A stretch of 32,680 nt of DNA from a virus. Under the pieces are notes generated by a model. That model saw only the letters and a program-made list of their open reading frames with translations, was not told the origin of the DNA and did not search any database. Shown piece after piece: positions 12,300 to 32,679 of this stretch. The position numbers were made by a program, and so were the translations under genes. Where the stretch lies: positions 1-32,680 of the IMG/VR virus record IMGVR_UViG_3300009441_000020, one strand, 5' to 3'. Position 1 is the first letter of the stretch; the number at the start of each line of letters is the position of its first letter.

Positions 12300-12920
12300 T
12301 TACCCGTGCTTCTTAACTATCTTTACTAATTCGTCAAGGTGTGGTTTAACATATTGACCATAGTCAGCATGTTGGTCTTCATCTACATCCAATGGCTGCA
12401 TTTTTTTCCACATCATATAATTAGCAATAAAACCTTCACTTGCATCTACTATCTTCTTGATATCTGATTTTGCATAATCTTTACCATACCATGAATTAGG
12501 ATCAACTTCTTGTCTTGCTGTTTCATCCGTAAATGGGTTTTTAATTTCTGTTCCTTCACGATCGAACGAGTATGCTTCGAATGTAGTTAAATGTTTCATT
12601 TGTTTTCTTTTCTTTTTCTTTTTCTTATATTCTTCTTCAGCATCGCCTGATCCTGCTGGTACATCACCAGAACCAACAGTACCATTATTTGGTAAAACTA
12701 CTGGGCCCATTCCGGAGATATTGGCTATTCCAATATTTTCTTCTACGTATTGTGGAAGTCCATCGTGTTTTGTACTTGCAAAATCTTTAAGTTGTTTAAG
12801 TGTCATTGAATCTGCTAATTCTTGTACTTCAGCACTTGCATCTTTAGGATCTAGTTCACCCTTCTTTAAAGCGTAAGCCATTCCCATTAATTTTTGTTGT
12901 GCAACTGAAGTACTAGACAT
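12300..12920 (-). CDS. DUF3008-like domain fused to a CTS-bearing internal protein (206 aa)
   Basis: Two parts are visible. Residues 1-60 match the DUF3008 pattern (SVAQQKLMGMAYALKKG...DASAEVQELADSM...FASTKHDGLP), a small domain often found in phage virion regions. A Gly/Asp linker and a run of lysines (residues 99-107) follow. At residue 108 an internal Met begins MKHLTTFEAYSFDREGTEI, which looks like the N-terminal module of the neighbouring genes. The codons just ahead of that Met are A/G-rich, like a gene leader. The gene may therefore be an in-frame fusion of two former genes, or it may have a second start at 12599 giving a 99-aa product. It is the last gene before the terminator, and its start lies 3 nt after the upstream stop. 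Confidence 0.8.
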   Translation of the reverse strand: MSSTSVAQQKLMGMAYALKKGELDPKDASAEVQELADSMTLKQLKDFASTKHDGLPQYVEENIGIANISGMGPVVLPNNGTVGSGDVPAGSGDAEEEYKKKKKKRKQMKHLTTFEAYSFDREGTEIKNPFTDETARQEVDPNSWYGKDYAKSDIKKIVDASEGFIANYMMWKKMQPLDVDEDQHADYGQYVKPHLDELVKIVKKHG

Positions 12921-12922
12921 AA

Positions 12923-13351
12923 TTAATATGTTGGAGTTTCTATTATCTTCAACTTAATAAGTTCAGCAATAAATTCTCTGTATTTCATTTTTTTAATTCC
13001 ACTAATAATAGTTTTATCACCTTCTACAAAATCAGAACCGTCAAAGTAATATGAGTTACCGTTATTGGCTGCTATTGTTATAACGTCACCTATCATAAAG
13101 TCAGAAGGACATCTTCTAGCACCAGATAAATCTTTTACAACATCTTTTCCCCATGCAGATAAACCATCTTGTTCACTTACACTACCGTCATATCTAATAG
13201 GATTTCCTGGCAATGCTTGTACAGCGTCACCTTCTGGCGTTCCATCAACTGCATAATAATATGCAAGAATAGCGTTAGCTAATGCTTCATCTCTGCCAGC
13301 TTTTAATTTTGCTTCGTTAAGAAACTGTTCAAATAATTGTAAGTGTTTCAT
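12923..13351 (-). CDS. Putative packaged internal head protein with capsid-targeting N-terminus (142 aa)
   Basis: The N-terminus MKHLQLFEQFLNE/AKLK matches the pattern of T4 capsid-targeting sequences (MKTYQEFIAE in internal protein III), with LNE as a possible gp21 prohead protease site after residue 13. The remaining ~129 residues contain a helical part (EALANAILAYYYAVDGTPEGDAV) and a beta-rich SH3-like stretch (DFMIGDVITIAANNGNSYYFDGSDFVEG). The body has no recognised family. Its first 27 nt (including the base before ATG) are identical to those of the next gene upstream, exactly 300 bp away. The role of the mature protein after injection is unknown. Confidence 0.75.
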   Translation of the reverse strand: MKHLQLFEQFLNEAKLKAGRDEALANAILAYYYAVDGTPEGDAVQALPGNPIRYDGSVSEQDGLSAWGKDVVKDLSGARRCPSDFMIGDVITIAANNGNSYYFDGSDFVEGDKTIISGIKKMKYREFIAELIKLKIIETPTY

Positions 13352-13352
13352 T
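13326..13352 (-). repeat. 27-bp direct repeat at gene 5' end, copy 1
   Basis: Identical to 13626-13652, with the two copies exactly 300 bp apart. It covers the start codon and the first codons for the CTS-like module. Recombination between the copies would precisely delete the 96-aa gene and keep a functional start. Confidence 0.9.
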
Positions 13353-13360
13353 TTAGTTTT

Positions 13361-13651
13361 TTATGTGTTTTGATTAATATAATCTATAAAGTCATCTGCT
13401 GTCTTACATGGATCATCTGATTGATCAGAACCTGGTCTTTTTTGGTATTCAATACCACATTCTTCATCTTCTGCATTCCACCAAAACATAAAACCGGCCG
13501 AGCTTACGCTTCCGTCTTCTATATAATCATTTACATAGATTTCCACTTCAGATGGTTCTGTGTCTTCGTAATAGTCTGCTATCTTTTTAATTTCTTTCTT
13601 GATATTAACTTTTTCGTTAATGAATTGTTCAAATAATTGTAAGTGTTTCAT
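13361..13651 (-). CDS. Putative packaged internal head protein with capsid-targeting N-terminus (96 aa)
   Basis: Begins MKHLQLFEQFINE/KVNIK: the same targeting module as its neighbour, with a candidate cleavage after INE (residue 13). The mature part (~83 residues) is strongly acidic (DYYEDTEPSEVEIYVNDYIEDGS, then DEECGIEY and DQSDDPCKTADDFIDY) and no family is recognised. An acidic body could mimic DNA or bind a basic host protein, but this is speculation. The leader carries three perfect copies of a 12-nt A-rich unit. Confidence 0.75.
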   Translation of the reverse strand: MKHLQLFEQFINEKVNIKKEIKKIADYYEDTEPSEVEIYVNDYIEDGSVSSAGFMFWWNAEDEECGIEYQKRPGSDQSDDPCKTADDFIDYINQNT

Positions 13652-13652
13652 T
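13626..13652 (-). repeat. 27-bp direct repeat at gene 5' end, copy 2
   Basis: Partner of 13326-13352. The same 27 bases encode the start and first residues MKHLQLFE of this gene, a recent module duplication or a site maintained by gene conversion. Confidence 0.9.
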
Positions 13653-13654
13653 AT

Positions 13655-13690
13655 TGTTTTATTGTTTGTTTTATTGTTTGTTTTATTGTT
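13655..13690 (-). repeat. Tandem 12-bp leader repeat, three copies
   Basis: On the minus strand AACAATAAAACA occurs three times without interruption, directly before the ATG at 13651. The same AAACAA-type text appears singly before many genes here, so the array probably acts as an A-rich translation-initiation leader in a host that does not rely on Shine-Dalgarno pairing. Confidence 0.85.
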
Positions 13691-13701
13691 TAATAGAACG
13701 T

Positions 13702-14763
13702 TTAATGACCATATTTACGATCCCATGCATAATCGAAATCTTCTATCTTATCTATTTCGAGTCTAAGCTTATGAGCAGTTTCTAAGATATCTTCATCATA
13801 GTGTGTTGGTGCATCTCCGTATTTATCTTTTAATTCTGCTTGTCCTTCCATGGAATATGTGTACGTTCTAAAAGCACCCAATATTCTGTTCATTTGCATT
13901 GCAGCATGTGTCATTGTCACTTCTTTACCACCAGGTGCAGTACCTATAACAACATCATCGTCCTTTCCTACACTTCTTCCAAATTCTTTTATACCATCTT
14001 TAATTTGCTCGGTTAAATCCATAATAGCATCCTTGACCATTTTACCTAATGGAAGTTTAACTGCAGCACTTTGTAAAATGTCTTTATATCTTTTTAGGTT
14101 TTCATATTTAAATTCCATATCGTTTTTATATACAATGGCTCCAACTTTTTCAGCATCTCGTTGTGCTATCTTATTTACCGTTGAATATCTTTGTTGTAAT
14201 GAATCGACATCAATAATAATAGCTCTATCTGAAACTTCAGCGATTCTCTTTACACTAGTAAGACCTGTTCCTTGCCATCCTGATCTTGTCTTATTAATAC
14301 CTATAGTTTCTTCACCTCTTTGCTTATCTGTTTCTATACTTCTAGGAGTTTTATATTTTCCTGACATTTGTTGTACTCTGTCCAAATATCCATGTAGGTC
14401 TCTATCAACAAAGAATTTATTATTTTCATCGGCAACACATAACATGTATTCACCTCCTGGGATAGTTCTTGATCTTATAGATTGAGCTTCCTCGGGAGCG
14501 TATGGGTTAACTTTTTCAACATCTGAAATGTAGAAAGTAATTGTGTTTTTACCTTTAGCCTTATATGCAGCATGTGGTGTTGTTACGATTAAATCATCAT
14601 CTTGTATCTTATCTAATGCTATTTTAGTTTTACCATAAAATGCTTCAGGTAATGTACTGTGTACGCCACCTCCATTAAATAAATCTCTAAGTATTTGTGA
14701 ACTAAACGCCTCGTTTAATTTCTGTGAAGTTACAAATGCTTCAAATAAGTGTATGTGTTTCAT
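13702..14763 (-). CDS. Putative packaged internal head protein with CTS; paralogue of the next upstream gene (353 aa)
   Basis: Starts MKHIHLFEAFVTSQKLNE/AFSSQ, a capsid-targeting-like module with a likely prohead-protease site after LNE at residue 18. The mature ~335-residue domain is clearly paralogous to the C-terminal half of the gene upstream. Shared blocks include LPEAFYGKTKIALDKIQDDD, NTITFYISDVEKVNPYAP, TIPGGEYML, GINKTRSGWQGTGLTSVKRI and IDKIEDFDYAW. The fold is unknown to me; the alternating beta segments and conserved Arg/Tyr would fit an enzyme. T4 packages its Alt ADP-ribosyltransferase in the same way, but I see no convincing R-S-E ADP-ribosyltransferase motif. Head packaging is inferred from the N-terminus. 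Confidence 0.75.
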   Translation of the reverse strand: MKHIHLFEAFVTSQKLNEAFSSQILRDLFNGGGVHSTLPEAFYGKTKIALDKIQDDDLIVTTPHAAYKAKGKNTITFYISDVEKVNPYAPEEAQSIRSRTIPGGEYMLCVADENNKFFVDRDLHGYLDRVQQMSGKYKTPRSIETDKQRGEETIGINKTRSGWQGTGLTSVKRIAEVSDRAIIIDVDSLQQRYSTVNKIAQRDAEKVGAIVYKNDMEFKYENLKRYKDILQSAAVKLPLGKMVKDAIMDLTEQIKDGIKEFGRSVGKDDDVVIGTAPGGKEVTMTHAAMQMNRILGAFRTYTYSMEGQAELKDKYGDAPTHYDEDILETAHKLRLEIDKIEDFDYAWDRKYGH

Positions 14764-29774: not shown

Positions 29775-30578
29775 TTAAAATCTTAACCATGATGGTGAGT
29801 AATAAAGTCCAAGTCCAATTGATGGTCCAGTACTAATTACTTGGTTGTTGTTTAGGTTTATTCCATAACCAACACCTATTCCTAACGACCAACCACCCTT
29901 TTTCTTAGGTTTTTGATTTAACTTTGTATTTATTAAGTTTATATTCTCTATGCTACCAAATGATAATCCAGGATATGATGTAGATATTTTTAATTGATTT
30001 GCACCTCCTATATTTTCAATTGCTGCCAATAAATTAATCGTATGATCAATATCAAATGTAGCGTTTCCATAATTAAAACTTAAATCTGTTTTAGTTATAA
30101 ACATAGAACCATTAAGATTTCTTGTGTTTCCACTTCCAAAATCATCAAATTTAACAAATGTTAATTTAGTGGTAGTAGAATCTACTTGACTTACGGTTGT
30201 GTTAGCTATTAAACTATCCTTGATATCAATATCGGTTGACAACAGTGTGTTTACCTTATTTAGATCTTTGTTTATATTAAGAGCTTTTTTGTACTTATTT
30301 AATAAATTAGATTGATCATCCTTTAAATTACTTAAATCAAATTCATAGCTTCTAATTTCAGAAATCAAATTACCATTTTCTGCCTGTATTACTCTAATAG
30401 AATCTTTAGAAGCTAGATAATTATTAAAGTTCCTATTAGAATCGTTTTTAGCAATTTCTAAATCATGTCTCAGGTTTTCAGTTTGATTACATTGTCTTAA
30501 AAATAACAAAATAAATAAGGCACCCAATACAAATGTAAGGGTGGACTTATTGGTAAATATGTTTTTTAATATGCTCAT
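29775..30578 (-). CDS. Membrane-anchored coiled-coil protein, candidate unimolecular spanin (267 aa)
   Basis: The N-terminus has one membrane segment (LTFVLGALFILLFL, residues 14-27) as a signal-anchor. It is followed by a heptad-rich coiled coil (residues 30-115, e.g. LRHDLEIAKNDSN, LKDDQSNLLNKYKKALNI). The C-terminal ~130 residues are beta-rich and end in a short barrel-like sequence with a C-terminal aromatic (GWSLGIGVGYGINLNN...GPSIGLGLYYSPSWLRF). It resembles DUF6808-type proteins of Bacteroidota phages, as I recall. An anchor in the inner membrane, a periplasmic rod and an outer-membrane-like end would suit a spanin that fuses the two membranes at lysis. A virion or host-modifying role is also possible. 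Confidence 0.5.
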   Translation of the reverse strand: MSILKNIFTNKSTLTFVLGALFILLFLRQCNQTENLRHDLEIAKNDSNRNFNNYLASKDSIRVIQAENGNLISEIRSYEFDLSNLKDDQSNLLNKYKKALNINKDLNKVNTLLSTDIDIKDSLIANTTVSQVDSTTTKLTFVKFDDFGSGNTRNLNGSMFITKTDLSFNYGNATFDIDHTINLLAAIENIGGANQLKISTSYPGLSFGSIENINLINTKLNQKPKKKGGWSLGIGVGYGINLNNNQVISTGPSIGLGLYYSPSWLRF

Positions 30579-30590
30579 TACTTTCTTTTA

Positions 30591-31988
30591 TTACAATTCA
30601 TTTTCAAAACCTTTATCTTCTCGACTAAGCTCTTGTTCTACATTATGTACTAGATATTGACTAGCAAAATATACATCTTTGTTTTCTACATCGAATGAAT
30701 ATGTTGTAAACTGTACACCTGTATTTATTAATTCATTAGAAATTACTGAGATCCACTCATTGTCTTGTGACAACATGCTATCTCCTACTATCACATTGCT
30801 GATATTCTTAAAGACAGCTCTTTCATCTTTTGTTTTAATTAAAACTGGATGTTCATGTGTTAGTTTAAGAGATCCATTGTTTATACTGTAGTATGATCCA
30901 TAACTATCTACTGTTATGTTGCTTACAACTGCGTTTGTATATGAGTCACTGTAATCTGCTGTAGCAACATCAAATTGCTTAAATATTACTCCATCATCAC
31001 CCAAACCTGTAATATCTAAAGATAATAATGCATCTCCTAATACAATATTTTCTACAGCTTTAGTTTCTCCATTAGCTAAAGTAAGTAAATCGCCTACTAA
31101 GTGACATCCTCCGCCTCCTCCGCCTCCGCCACTAAACGTTGGCAATGGTGTTGAAGATGGTGTCAGTGTTGGTGTTAAACCTGAACCTCCGGTTCCACTA
31201 CCTGTTCCACTGTCTAAAGTCGCAAATGGTGTCGGTTGTAGAGTTGGTACTGGTGTTAAAGTTGGTCCGGCGCCTGCACCACTTCCACTTGTTGGTGCTG
31301 GGGTTGGTGCTGGTTGTCCAGTTGGTACTGGGGTTGCAGTTGGCTGTGCAGCATTAGTTGCTCTACTAAGTACAGAACTATATGTAGTTCCTACTGCATT
31401 TGTAGCATAAGCCCAGCAATAATATGTAGTTCCTGGCGTTAAACCATTAAATACTTCTTGAATACCACCTGTTGCCCATGGGCCAATTGAATATGCTTCA
31501 TTATTACTTCTAGTTGGATTATCACCAAACCAAAAACCTCTACCTGTAAGAGGGGATCCATTTGCACTTGAAATATTACCATTAGCTATCAATGTAGTAC
31601 TACTACTTGCAGTAAAATTAACCATATTAACACTAGGTGCTGAAGGTCCTGGTGTTGCAGTTGGTGATAGTGGTGGTTCAGTTGCAGTTGGTGTTGCAGT
31701 TGGTTCAGCCGTTGGTATTGGCGTTGCAGTTGGTTCAGCCGTTGGATTTGGTGCTCCTGCTCCAGCAACTTGACTAACAAGTATAGAATCTATAGTTGTT
31801 GTGTTATCGTGCCTAACTGTTAGGGAATGACTCCTAGAAGCGCCCGTATTAGCTGCTACAGTAATAGTCCATTCATCTGTACTACCTACTCTATCCACAG
31901 TAATCCAACTGGGTGGAGTATCCCACGTATAAGCAGTGGATGATGGTGTTATTGTTACCGTTCTTTGATATTGGTTTGGTAGTGCCAT
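30591..31988 (-). CDS. BACON/FN3-like surface protein with C-terminal intein-like (Hint/BIL) domain (465 aa)
   Basis: Domains in order: BACON-like (1-75: PPSWITVD, DEWTITVAANTGASRSHSLTV, DSILVSQVAG); Thr/Pro/Glu linker (TAEPTATP repeats, 80-118); FN3-like domain (119-213, ending GLTPGTTYYCWAYATNAVGT); Thr/Pro/Gly linker; an eight-Gly run (287-294); then a Hint domain at Cys295. The Hint domain shows block A CHLVGDLLTLANGETKAVENI, block B LTHEHPVLI (Thr377, His378/His380) and C-terminal block YLVHN (His448, Asn449). The residue after Asn is Val, not Cys/Ser/Thr, so splicing is unlikely and self-cleavage (bacterial intein-like type A) is expected. The tail after Asn is just 16 residues. BACON domains are common in Bacteroidota and bind glycans or mucin. 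Confidence 0.75.
   Translation of the reverse strand: MALPNQYQRTVTITPSSTAYTWDTPPSWITVDRVGSTDEWTITVAANTGASRSHSLTVRHDNTTTIDSILVSQVAGAGAPNPTAEPTATPIPTAEPTATPTATEPPLSPTATPGPSAPSVNMVNFTASSSTTLIANGNISSANGSPLTGRGFWFGDNPTRSNNEAYSIGPWATGGIQEVFNGLTPGTTYYCWAYATNAVGTTYSSVLSRATNAAQPTATPVPTGQPAPTPAPTSGSGAGAGPTLTPVPTLQPTPFATLDSGTGSGTGGSGLTPTLTPSSTPLPTFSGGGGGGGGCHLVGDLLTLANGETKAVENIVLGDALLSLDITGLGDDGVIFKQFDVATADYSDSYTNAVVSNITVDSYGSYYSINNGSLKLTHEHPVLIKTKDERAVFKNISNVIVGDSMLSQDNEWISVISNELINTGVQFTTYSFDVENKDVYFASQYLVHNVEQELSREDKGFENEL
31693..31745 (-). repeat. Repeat coding for the Thr/Pro linker
   Basis: A 23-bp segment occurs at 31693-31715 and again at 31723-31745 (30-bp period), coding for the PTAEPTATP units. 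Slippage or recombination here would change linker length in steps of ten residues. Confidence 0.8.
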
Positions 31989-32025: not shown

Positions 32026-32679
32026 TTATGAACTCTGTGATCCACCGCCGCAATTGCTATATTCGAATTCAAATACGTTTGAGAGCACAGATTGTGAACC
32101 TGTATTTAATACTAATCTAAAATATTTAGTGGTACCGCATTGTTGTGTATTCAAAGTTATAGGCGATGCACATCCAGATGTTGCTGAAACCCAAGGGCCA
32201 GTAGGTGTTGTGCTGTGTTGTGCCGTAATTGAATTACACGATAATGTTGATTTAGTAAAGCTTACTCTAGTAGAATCATTTCCGAATTCAGTTGCACTGT
32301 TAATAGTTATAGTTGGTGTTCCGCTACCTGAACCTCCACCTGGTGTTTCAGTTGGAGTTGGCGTTCCGCTACCTGAACCTCCACCTGGTGTTTCAGTTGG
32401 AGTTGGCGTTCCACCGCTAATTGTAACAGTAACAGTATCTAATACAGTACCATCAGCATCATTTACTAAATTTATTAACGTTGTTCCATTTGTAACTGCG
32501 TCAAAGGTTCCTAATTCATGATCATATGCGTCAGTATATGGTGGACCACTAGTATCGCCATCATTAAATAAGTTAGAATTACTAAGTTCAATTCGCCATG
32601 CTACGTTAGAATGCATGTATAAATTAAAACTATCACCTACATCCATAGAATATTCAGATATAGGTTGATCAGTAAATGA
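32026..32679 (-). CDS. Surface/fibre protein with Thr/Pro/Gly linker repeats, 5' end cut by window edge
   Basis: The frame is open to the right edge (residues before the first Met read SFTDQPISEYS), so the true start is outside and the ATG at 32646 is only internal. The visible part has a BACON/Ig-like beta domain (FNLYMHSNVAWRIEL...ADGTVLDTVTVTISGG), a linker of two TPTETPGGGSGSG units, and an FN3-like domain (TITINSATEFGNDSTRVSF...KYFRLVLNTGSQSVLSNVFEFEYSN). Four cysteines in the last ~75 residues may pair. It ends GGGSQSS without a Hint domain, unlike its neighbour, which shares the same domain plan. Likely a virion surface or tail-fibre-associated protein. Confidence 0.65.
   Translation of the reverse strand, partial: SFTDQPISEYSMDVGDSFNLYMHSNVAWRIELSNSNLFNDGDTSGPPYTDAYDHELGTFDAVTNGTTLINLVNDADGTVLDTVTVTISGGTPTPTETPGGGSGSGTPTPTETPGGGSGSGTPTITINSATEFGNDSTRVSFTKSTLSCNSITAQHSTTPTGPWVSATSGCASPITLNTQQCGTTKYFRLVLNTGSQSVLSNVFEFEYSNCGGGSQSS
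32318..32407 (-). repeat. Perfect 45-bp tandem duplication in surface-protein gene
   Basis: Two exact in-frame copies, 32318-32362 and 32363-32407, each coding for a 15-residue Thr/Pro/Gly linker unit. No mismatch separates them, so the duplication is recent or kept uniform by slippage. Confidence 0.92.

Follow-up and report, generated by a model that had tools for sequence, protein, structure and literature searches.

The window, which is the whole 32,680-nucleotide stretch of viral DNA analysed here (IMG/VR record IMGVR_UViG_3300009441_000020), carried two T4-like signs, a single-strand DNA-binding protein (phrog_224, E 2.8e-41) and a RuvC-like gene, which suggests that the record is of T4-like phage origin. 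The open reading frame check on the minus strand returned a gene at exactly 30591-31988, with an ATG start and 465 aa. The strand was a detail absent from the original prediction, and the residue positions given there (Cys295, THEH 377-380, His448-Asn449, Val450 and eight Gly at 287-294) were all recovered in the sequence. The features were as follows.

30591..31988, minus strand: whole gene, predicted tail adhesin with C-terminal Hint, 465 aa (ORF and translation)
31761..31988, minus strand: domain of BACON type at the N-terminus, residues 1-76 (orthologues L009, L014 and L026 exceed the Pfam BACON cut-off; alignment)
31350..31646, minus strand: FN3-like stretch flanked by PTATP-type linkers, residues about 115-213 (weak Pfam fn3 match)
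31107..31130, minus strand: eight-Gly run, residues 287-294, with Gly294 as predicted acyl donor (sequence)
30642..31106, minus strand: Hint domain, residues 295-449 (profile, model and fold matches)
31104..31106, minus strand: Cys295, predicted nucleophile of the N-S acyl shift (invariant in 31 sequences)
30849..30860, minus strand: THEH 377-380, block B TxxH (T, E and H invariant in 31 sequences)
30642..30647, minus strand: His448-Asn449, predicted Asn cyclisation site (invariant in 31 sequences)
30594..30641, minus strand: 16-residue tail VEQELSREDKGFENEL, residues 450-465, Val first (sequence; pLDDT below 50)
30612..30614, minus strand: Lys459, predicted acyl acceptor (the sole Lys beyond the Hint; tail Lys universal among relatives)
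29775..30578, minus strand: downstream gene in synteny, 267 aa, with a predicted membrane anchor and coiled coil, given for context (same order in relatives)

The body had been described as BACON/FN3. The BACON part held through Pfam matches above cut-off in the three orthologues (E 6e-7 to 4e-6), whereas the window copy itself lay below the Pfam cut-off and the fn3 match was weak (E 0.067, residues 180-204). The Gly run preceded the Cys in most close relatives. Residues 1-294 contained no Lys at all, and the Hint-less proteins at the locus were likewise Lys-poor.

In the syntenic contigs, the flanking genes were mostly 50-90% identical and the Hint protein was more divergent, with identities of 43-65% in the Hint and 54-69% in the N-terminal domain and a variable middle region. 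A further lineage (L035, L049, L051, L062) had a body of 1110-1169 aa with the same kind of Hint, followed by homologues of the same downstream genes, and the bodies found elsewhere contained collagen-like repeats, FN3 or, in L063, a Phage_Tail_Tip match. These bodies and their setting support, short of proof, a tail or fibre location, and the relatives and domains together point to a probable virion surface protein. No relative was found in the first genome-contig scan; in a second genome scan, 13 Flavobacterium genomes (L408-L420) were each seen to have a related protein, Hint-ended with Lys at +2. Judging from related IMG/VR records, these copies are probably prophages. The copy in L411 contained two FN3 stretches besides the Hint.

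BACON proteins without a Hint were also observed at the same locus (L353:2429-3097 and L011:5332-5922), both with a Gly-rich end. In L011 a Hint sat on a different body in the gene preceding the Hint-less BACON gene, which suggests that the Hint is mobile between bodies. The upstream gene in the window (32026-32679, cut by the window end) contained PTPTETPGGGSGSG repeats and ended in CGGGSQSS, and its homologues in L009 and L022 also ended in Cys followed by poly-Gly. At 12300-14763 of the window, several adjoining genes had a common leader (MKHLQLFEQF or MKHIHLFEAF), possibly a targeting or prohead leader.

Identity of the Hint domain

The single window Hint gave no convincing match in Pfam, NCBIfam or PDB, and matched PHROG 38766 'virion structural protein' (E 2.7e-9). 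Relatives from viral contigs and isolated phages were assembled into a 33-row family alignment and profile. Against the PDB, the 33-member profile matched the bacterial intein-like (BIL) domain 2LWY with E 3e-14 and 6Y75/6TMM with about 3e-11; members of the alignment matched Intein_splicing, PT-HINT and Hint_2 (E down to about 1e-7), and all of them matched PHROG 38766 'virion structural protein'. The AlphaFold2 model (pLDDT 88.2, pTM 0.83) retrieved BUBL1 BIL2 (6Y75) first in the fold search (E 3e-10) and 2LWY next, and in the viral library its matches were NCTB proteins, recognised by size, and a number of proteins from uncultured phages whose names refer to Hint, FN3, PASTA or collagen domains. 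The Cys, T.EH and HN were invariant in a 31-sequence alignment of diverse relatives, and the Hint was under purifying selection in the pairs tested (dN/dS about 0.10-0.33, four computable pairs).

The profile, model and fold matches supported the Hint assignment of the original prediction and its C-terminal placement, with a 16-residue tail behind it. The proposed A-type BIL class agreed with the nearest solved folds in the profile and fold searches, which were BIL domains, and the residue after Asn449 was indeed a non-nucleophile. As far as sequence and model can tell, the window domain appears most like an A-type BIL and fits all the tested features of that group: the Hint fold (model, fold search, profile), a Cys in first place, the TxxH block and the terminal HN, the non-nucleophile at +1 that is usual in the group (Val450), and a seat in the variable part of a variable protein. 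Over 134 Hints, the +1 residues were mostly Lys, Val, Ala, Asn and Ile, with 18 Thr, 2 Ser and no Cys.

Other Hint classes were compared in the same way. A canonical intein has Cys, Ser or Thr at +1, a functional C-extein and a conserved host protein, whereas the window protein has Val at +1, a tail of 16 aa and a variable host. Hedgehog Hog domains lack a C-terminal HN and carry a sterol-binding region after the Hint, while here the HN was present and no such region was found. The PT-HINT of polymorphic toxins lies near the C-terminus of surface proteins, and autoprocessing has been proposed for it (PMC3482391); in those proteins a toxin follows the Hint, unlike the 16-aa tail alone in the window protein. 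The A-type BIL of Clostridium thermocellum (2LWY), which was the best PDB profile match, shared the fold and the HN end. To our knowledge, a tail Lys is no described feature of the A-type group, and in this the window protein may differ from 2LWY.

The best fold match, BIL2 of the Tetrahymena thermophila BUBL1 polyubiquitin locus (6Y75, 6TMM), shared the intein-like Cys and HN ends. Unlike the window Hint, it is eukaryotic and flanked by ubiquitin-like domains, with 19% identity; the flanks of the window Hint are the BACON/FN3-like domains of a phage adhesin body and a short tail on the C-side. A Lys that could act as acceptor on the C-side, as in the BUBL type, was present as a sequence feature. 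For BIL2 the authors report splicing with an isopeptide bond to a Lys side chain, and transfer of the ubiquitin-like domain to other substrates (PMC8616854). Among isolated jumbo phages, a Phage NCTB protein ('contains intein domain') and Alexandravirus gp106 ('virion structural protein') resembled the window protein in having a C-terminal Hint and a short Lys tail; they have a collagen-like or Ig-like body and adjoin tail fibre genes, and differ in identity (25-30%), bodies and hosts. Beyond their annotation, no characterisation of these proteins was found in the searchable papers.

Lysine in the tails behind phage Hints

The 16-residue tail had no place in the original discussion. In the relatives, the tails after HN were short and mutually dissimilar, and their composition was compared with C-terminal stretches, trimmed to the same lengths, from other ORFs in those loci that reached 150 aa. 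In the first set, where the shortest tail per cluster was used, Lys was present in 28/28 lineages (60% identity) against 11.1 expected, and Arg in 5 against 8.7. A tail Lys was recorded as a prediction after this set, and relatives were then scanned with other seeds; lineages seen only in these later scans had it in 13/13 cases (4.6 expected). Pooling gave 103 distinct terminal tails of 1-30 aa; every one contained Lys, 81 of them exactly one, and at 50% identity the count was 33/33 lineages against 12.2 expected. Arg, which has the same charge as Lys and is a poor nucleophile, was not enriched (4 against 8.9 expected); acidic residues were also enriched.

A Lys lay within 12 residues after HN in 130/134 Hints, the exceptions being the first tandem Hint of L291 and L295, one Hint in L306, and that of L245, which ends HQ and has no tail. 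Its position varied from +1 to about +12, which fits a nucleophile on a flexible tether, and the shortest tails consisted of a single Lys (copies ending HN-K-stop); the short tail of L063 was FTAKL. In the Alexandraviruses the +1 residue was Thr. Internal Hints mostly had HN-Lys as well, as in the L201 group ahead of a laminin-G domain. Two copies (L084, L159) had no obvious Cys at the usual place and two (L165, L175) were without the block B His, yet all four had HN and Lys. Lys was absent from the 10 residues after HN in three Hint proteins of plasmids, of which one or more is of the toxin type. An origin of the Lys as a by-product of the ribosome-binding site of the next gene was considered and rejected, since most internal Hints have HN-Lys with no gene beginning after them, and genes that occupy the same position but have no Hint are without Lys.

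A matched control was then built from loci picked by the neighbouring 183-aa gene and not by the Hint. Directly upstream of the 267-aa gene, Lys was present in 19/19 distinct Hint-bearing tails, against 1/19 Hint-less C-termini at the same position when the last 10-22 residues were counted and none when the last 6 were counted (Fisher p about 1e-9, with kinship ignored and many of the Hint-bearing tails shared with the earlier sets). The Hint-less proteins were Lys-poor overall (2.6%), which limits this contrast, and for the same reason the Lys-free body of the window protein was dropped as evidence for a guard against self-ligation. Five Hint-bearing members were new in this set (L335, L342, L398, L400, L402) and 5/5 had the Lys; L335 and L342 carried a clearly different Hint on a BACON body. 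We regard the universal tail Lys behind phage Hints as new here; no description of it, or of C-terminal Hints on phage fibres, was found in the open-access papers, with most subscription journals outside this search.

Proposed isopeptide reaction and alternative readings

From sequence, model and analogy, the window gene is predicted to encode an adhesin in which an A-type BIL-like Hint would join the end of the body to a tail Lys by an isopeptide bond, a reading that we are as ready to believe as to doubt. In the proposed course, Cys295 would form a thioester with Gly294 by an N-S shift aided by Thr377 and His380. Lys459 of the same tail, or the same Lys in a neighbouring subunit, would attack the Gly294 thioester to give a Gly-to-Lys isopeptide bond, and cyclisation of Asn449 would free the Hint, leaving a mature adhesin of residues 1-294 with its poly-Gly end bonded to a tail Lys side chain. 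The masses calculated from the sequence are 48.2 kDa for the precursor, 17.0 kDa for the Hint, 29.3 kDa for the body and 31.2 kDa for the body with the tail attached. These steps were proposed because the Cys, His and Asn are retained, a Lys stands in the tail and BIL2 offers a precedent; the Hint activity and the role of Lys as acyl acceptor are both putative. The terminal HN was kept in nearly all relatives, though cleavage on the C-side would release no more than 1-22 residues; because of this and the Lys in 103/103 tails, the tail seems to be part of the reaction.

Several observations weigh against the isopeptide reading. The acidic enrichment means that the tail could be a binding motif, and the four copies without an obvious Cys or block B His keep HN and Lys all the same. 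The Thr at +1 in the Alexandraviruses could serve a classical splicing step, and a tail of HN-K-stop offers little to ligate. The matched control ignores kinship and draws on Lys-poor Hint-less proteins.

It is conceivable, if rather unlikely, that the Hint is lost after hydrolysing its own thioester, so that the adhesin keeps a free poly-Gly end and the tail aids folding or timing. Cleavage at either end is known for A-type BILs (PMC5874633), and the Hint-less BACON protein of L353 at the same locus ends in ...CNSGGGGGGSQFQQV, near the predicted cleavage remnant; the retention of HN and the tail Lys would be left unexplained. The original prediction had mainly read the domain as driving cleavage, and given these two features a simple release of the 294-residue part does not suffice as the whole story. 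Its other option, a thioester joined to another protein, came closer to the data, which indicate a specific acceptor, the Lys in the adhesin's own tail or a neighbour's.

Ordinary A-type splicing, in which Asn449 would cyclise and the amino group of Val450 would attack the thioester to leave the tail peptide-bonded to the body, is improbable: it would agree with the invariant HN of the 31-sequence core set and with the reported ability to splice of A-type BILs that have no nucleophile on the C-flank (Dassa et al. 2004, as cited in PMC5874633), but it gives the universal Lys no role, since any +1 residue would serve. The least probable reading is a non-enzymatic Hint acting as a folded cap with the charged, Lys-bearing tail as a docking or assembly signal, to which the acidic enrichment, the copies without an obvious Cys or block B His and the S74 chaperone domain behind the Hint of L217 would be agreeable, but against which stand the invariance of Cys, TxEH and HN across the 31 diverse sequences and the copies ending HN-K, since a motif for docking would not be expected to be reduced to a single Lys.

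If the isopeptide reading is extended to the relatives, a widespread phage family of built-in, ATP-independent isopeptide ligases is possible, and we offer this tentatively: self-excising Hints at adhesin ends would use the tail Lys as acceptor to tie fibre ends together, or onto some other protein of the virion. For bacterial intein-like domains, the near-universal Lys behind phage Hints provides a simple, testable connection to how tail fibres are covalently assembled or processed. If this holds, a class of self-excising isopeptide ligases would be added, potentially useful as protein tools. Relatives in sequenced Flavobacterium strains and isolated jumbo phages mean that test material exists.

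Unusual Hint architectures among relatives

Tandem Hint arrays with one to a few residues between the units were observed in L312 (1624-4362) and also in L291, L295, L311, L313, L317, L320 and L296; the order in L312 was HN-RA-CF...HN-KA-CF...HN-K-stop. A collagen-like protein of 1378 aa (L217:425-4558) had a Peptidase_S74 chaperone domain behind its Hint, giving two self-processing domains in a fibre-like protein. In Phage NCTB, a small stand-alone Hint-like gene (L008:8462-8944, tail HN-KVD) adjoined the gene of the tail protein that bears a Hint; a third Hint protein, of large size, lay nearby.
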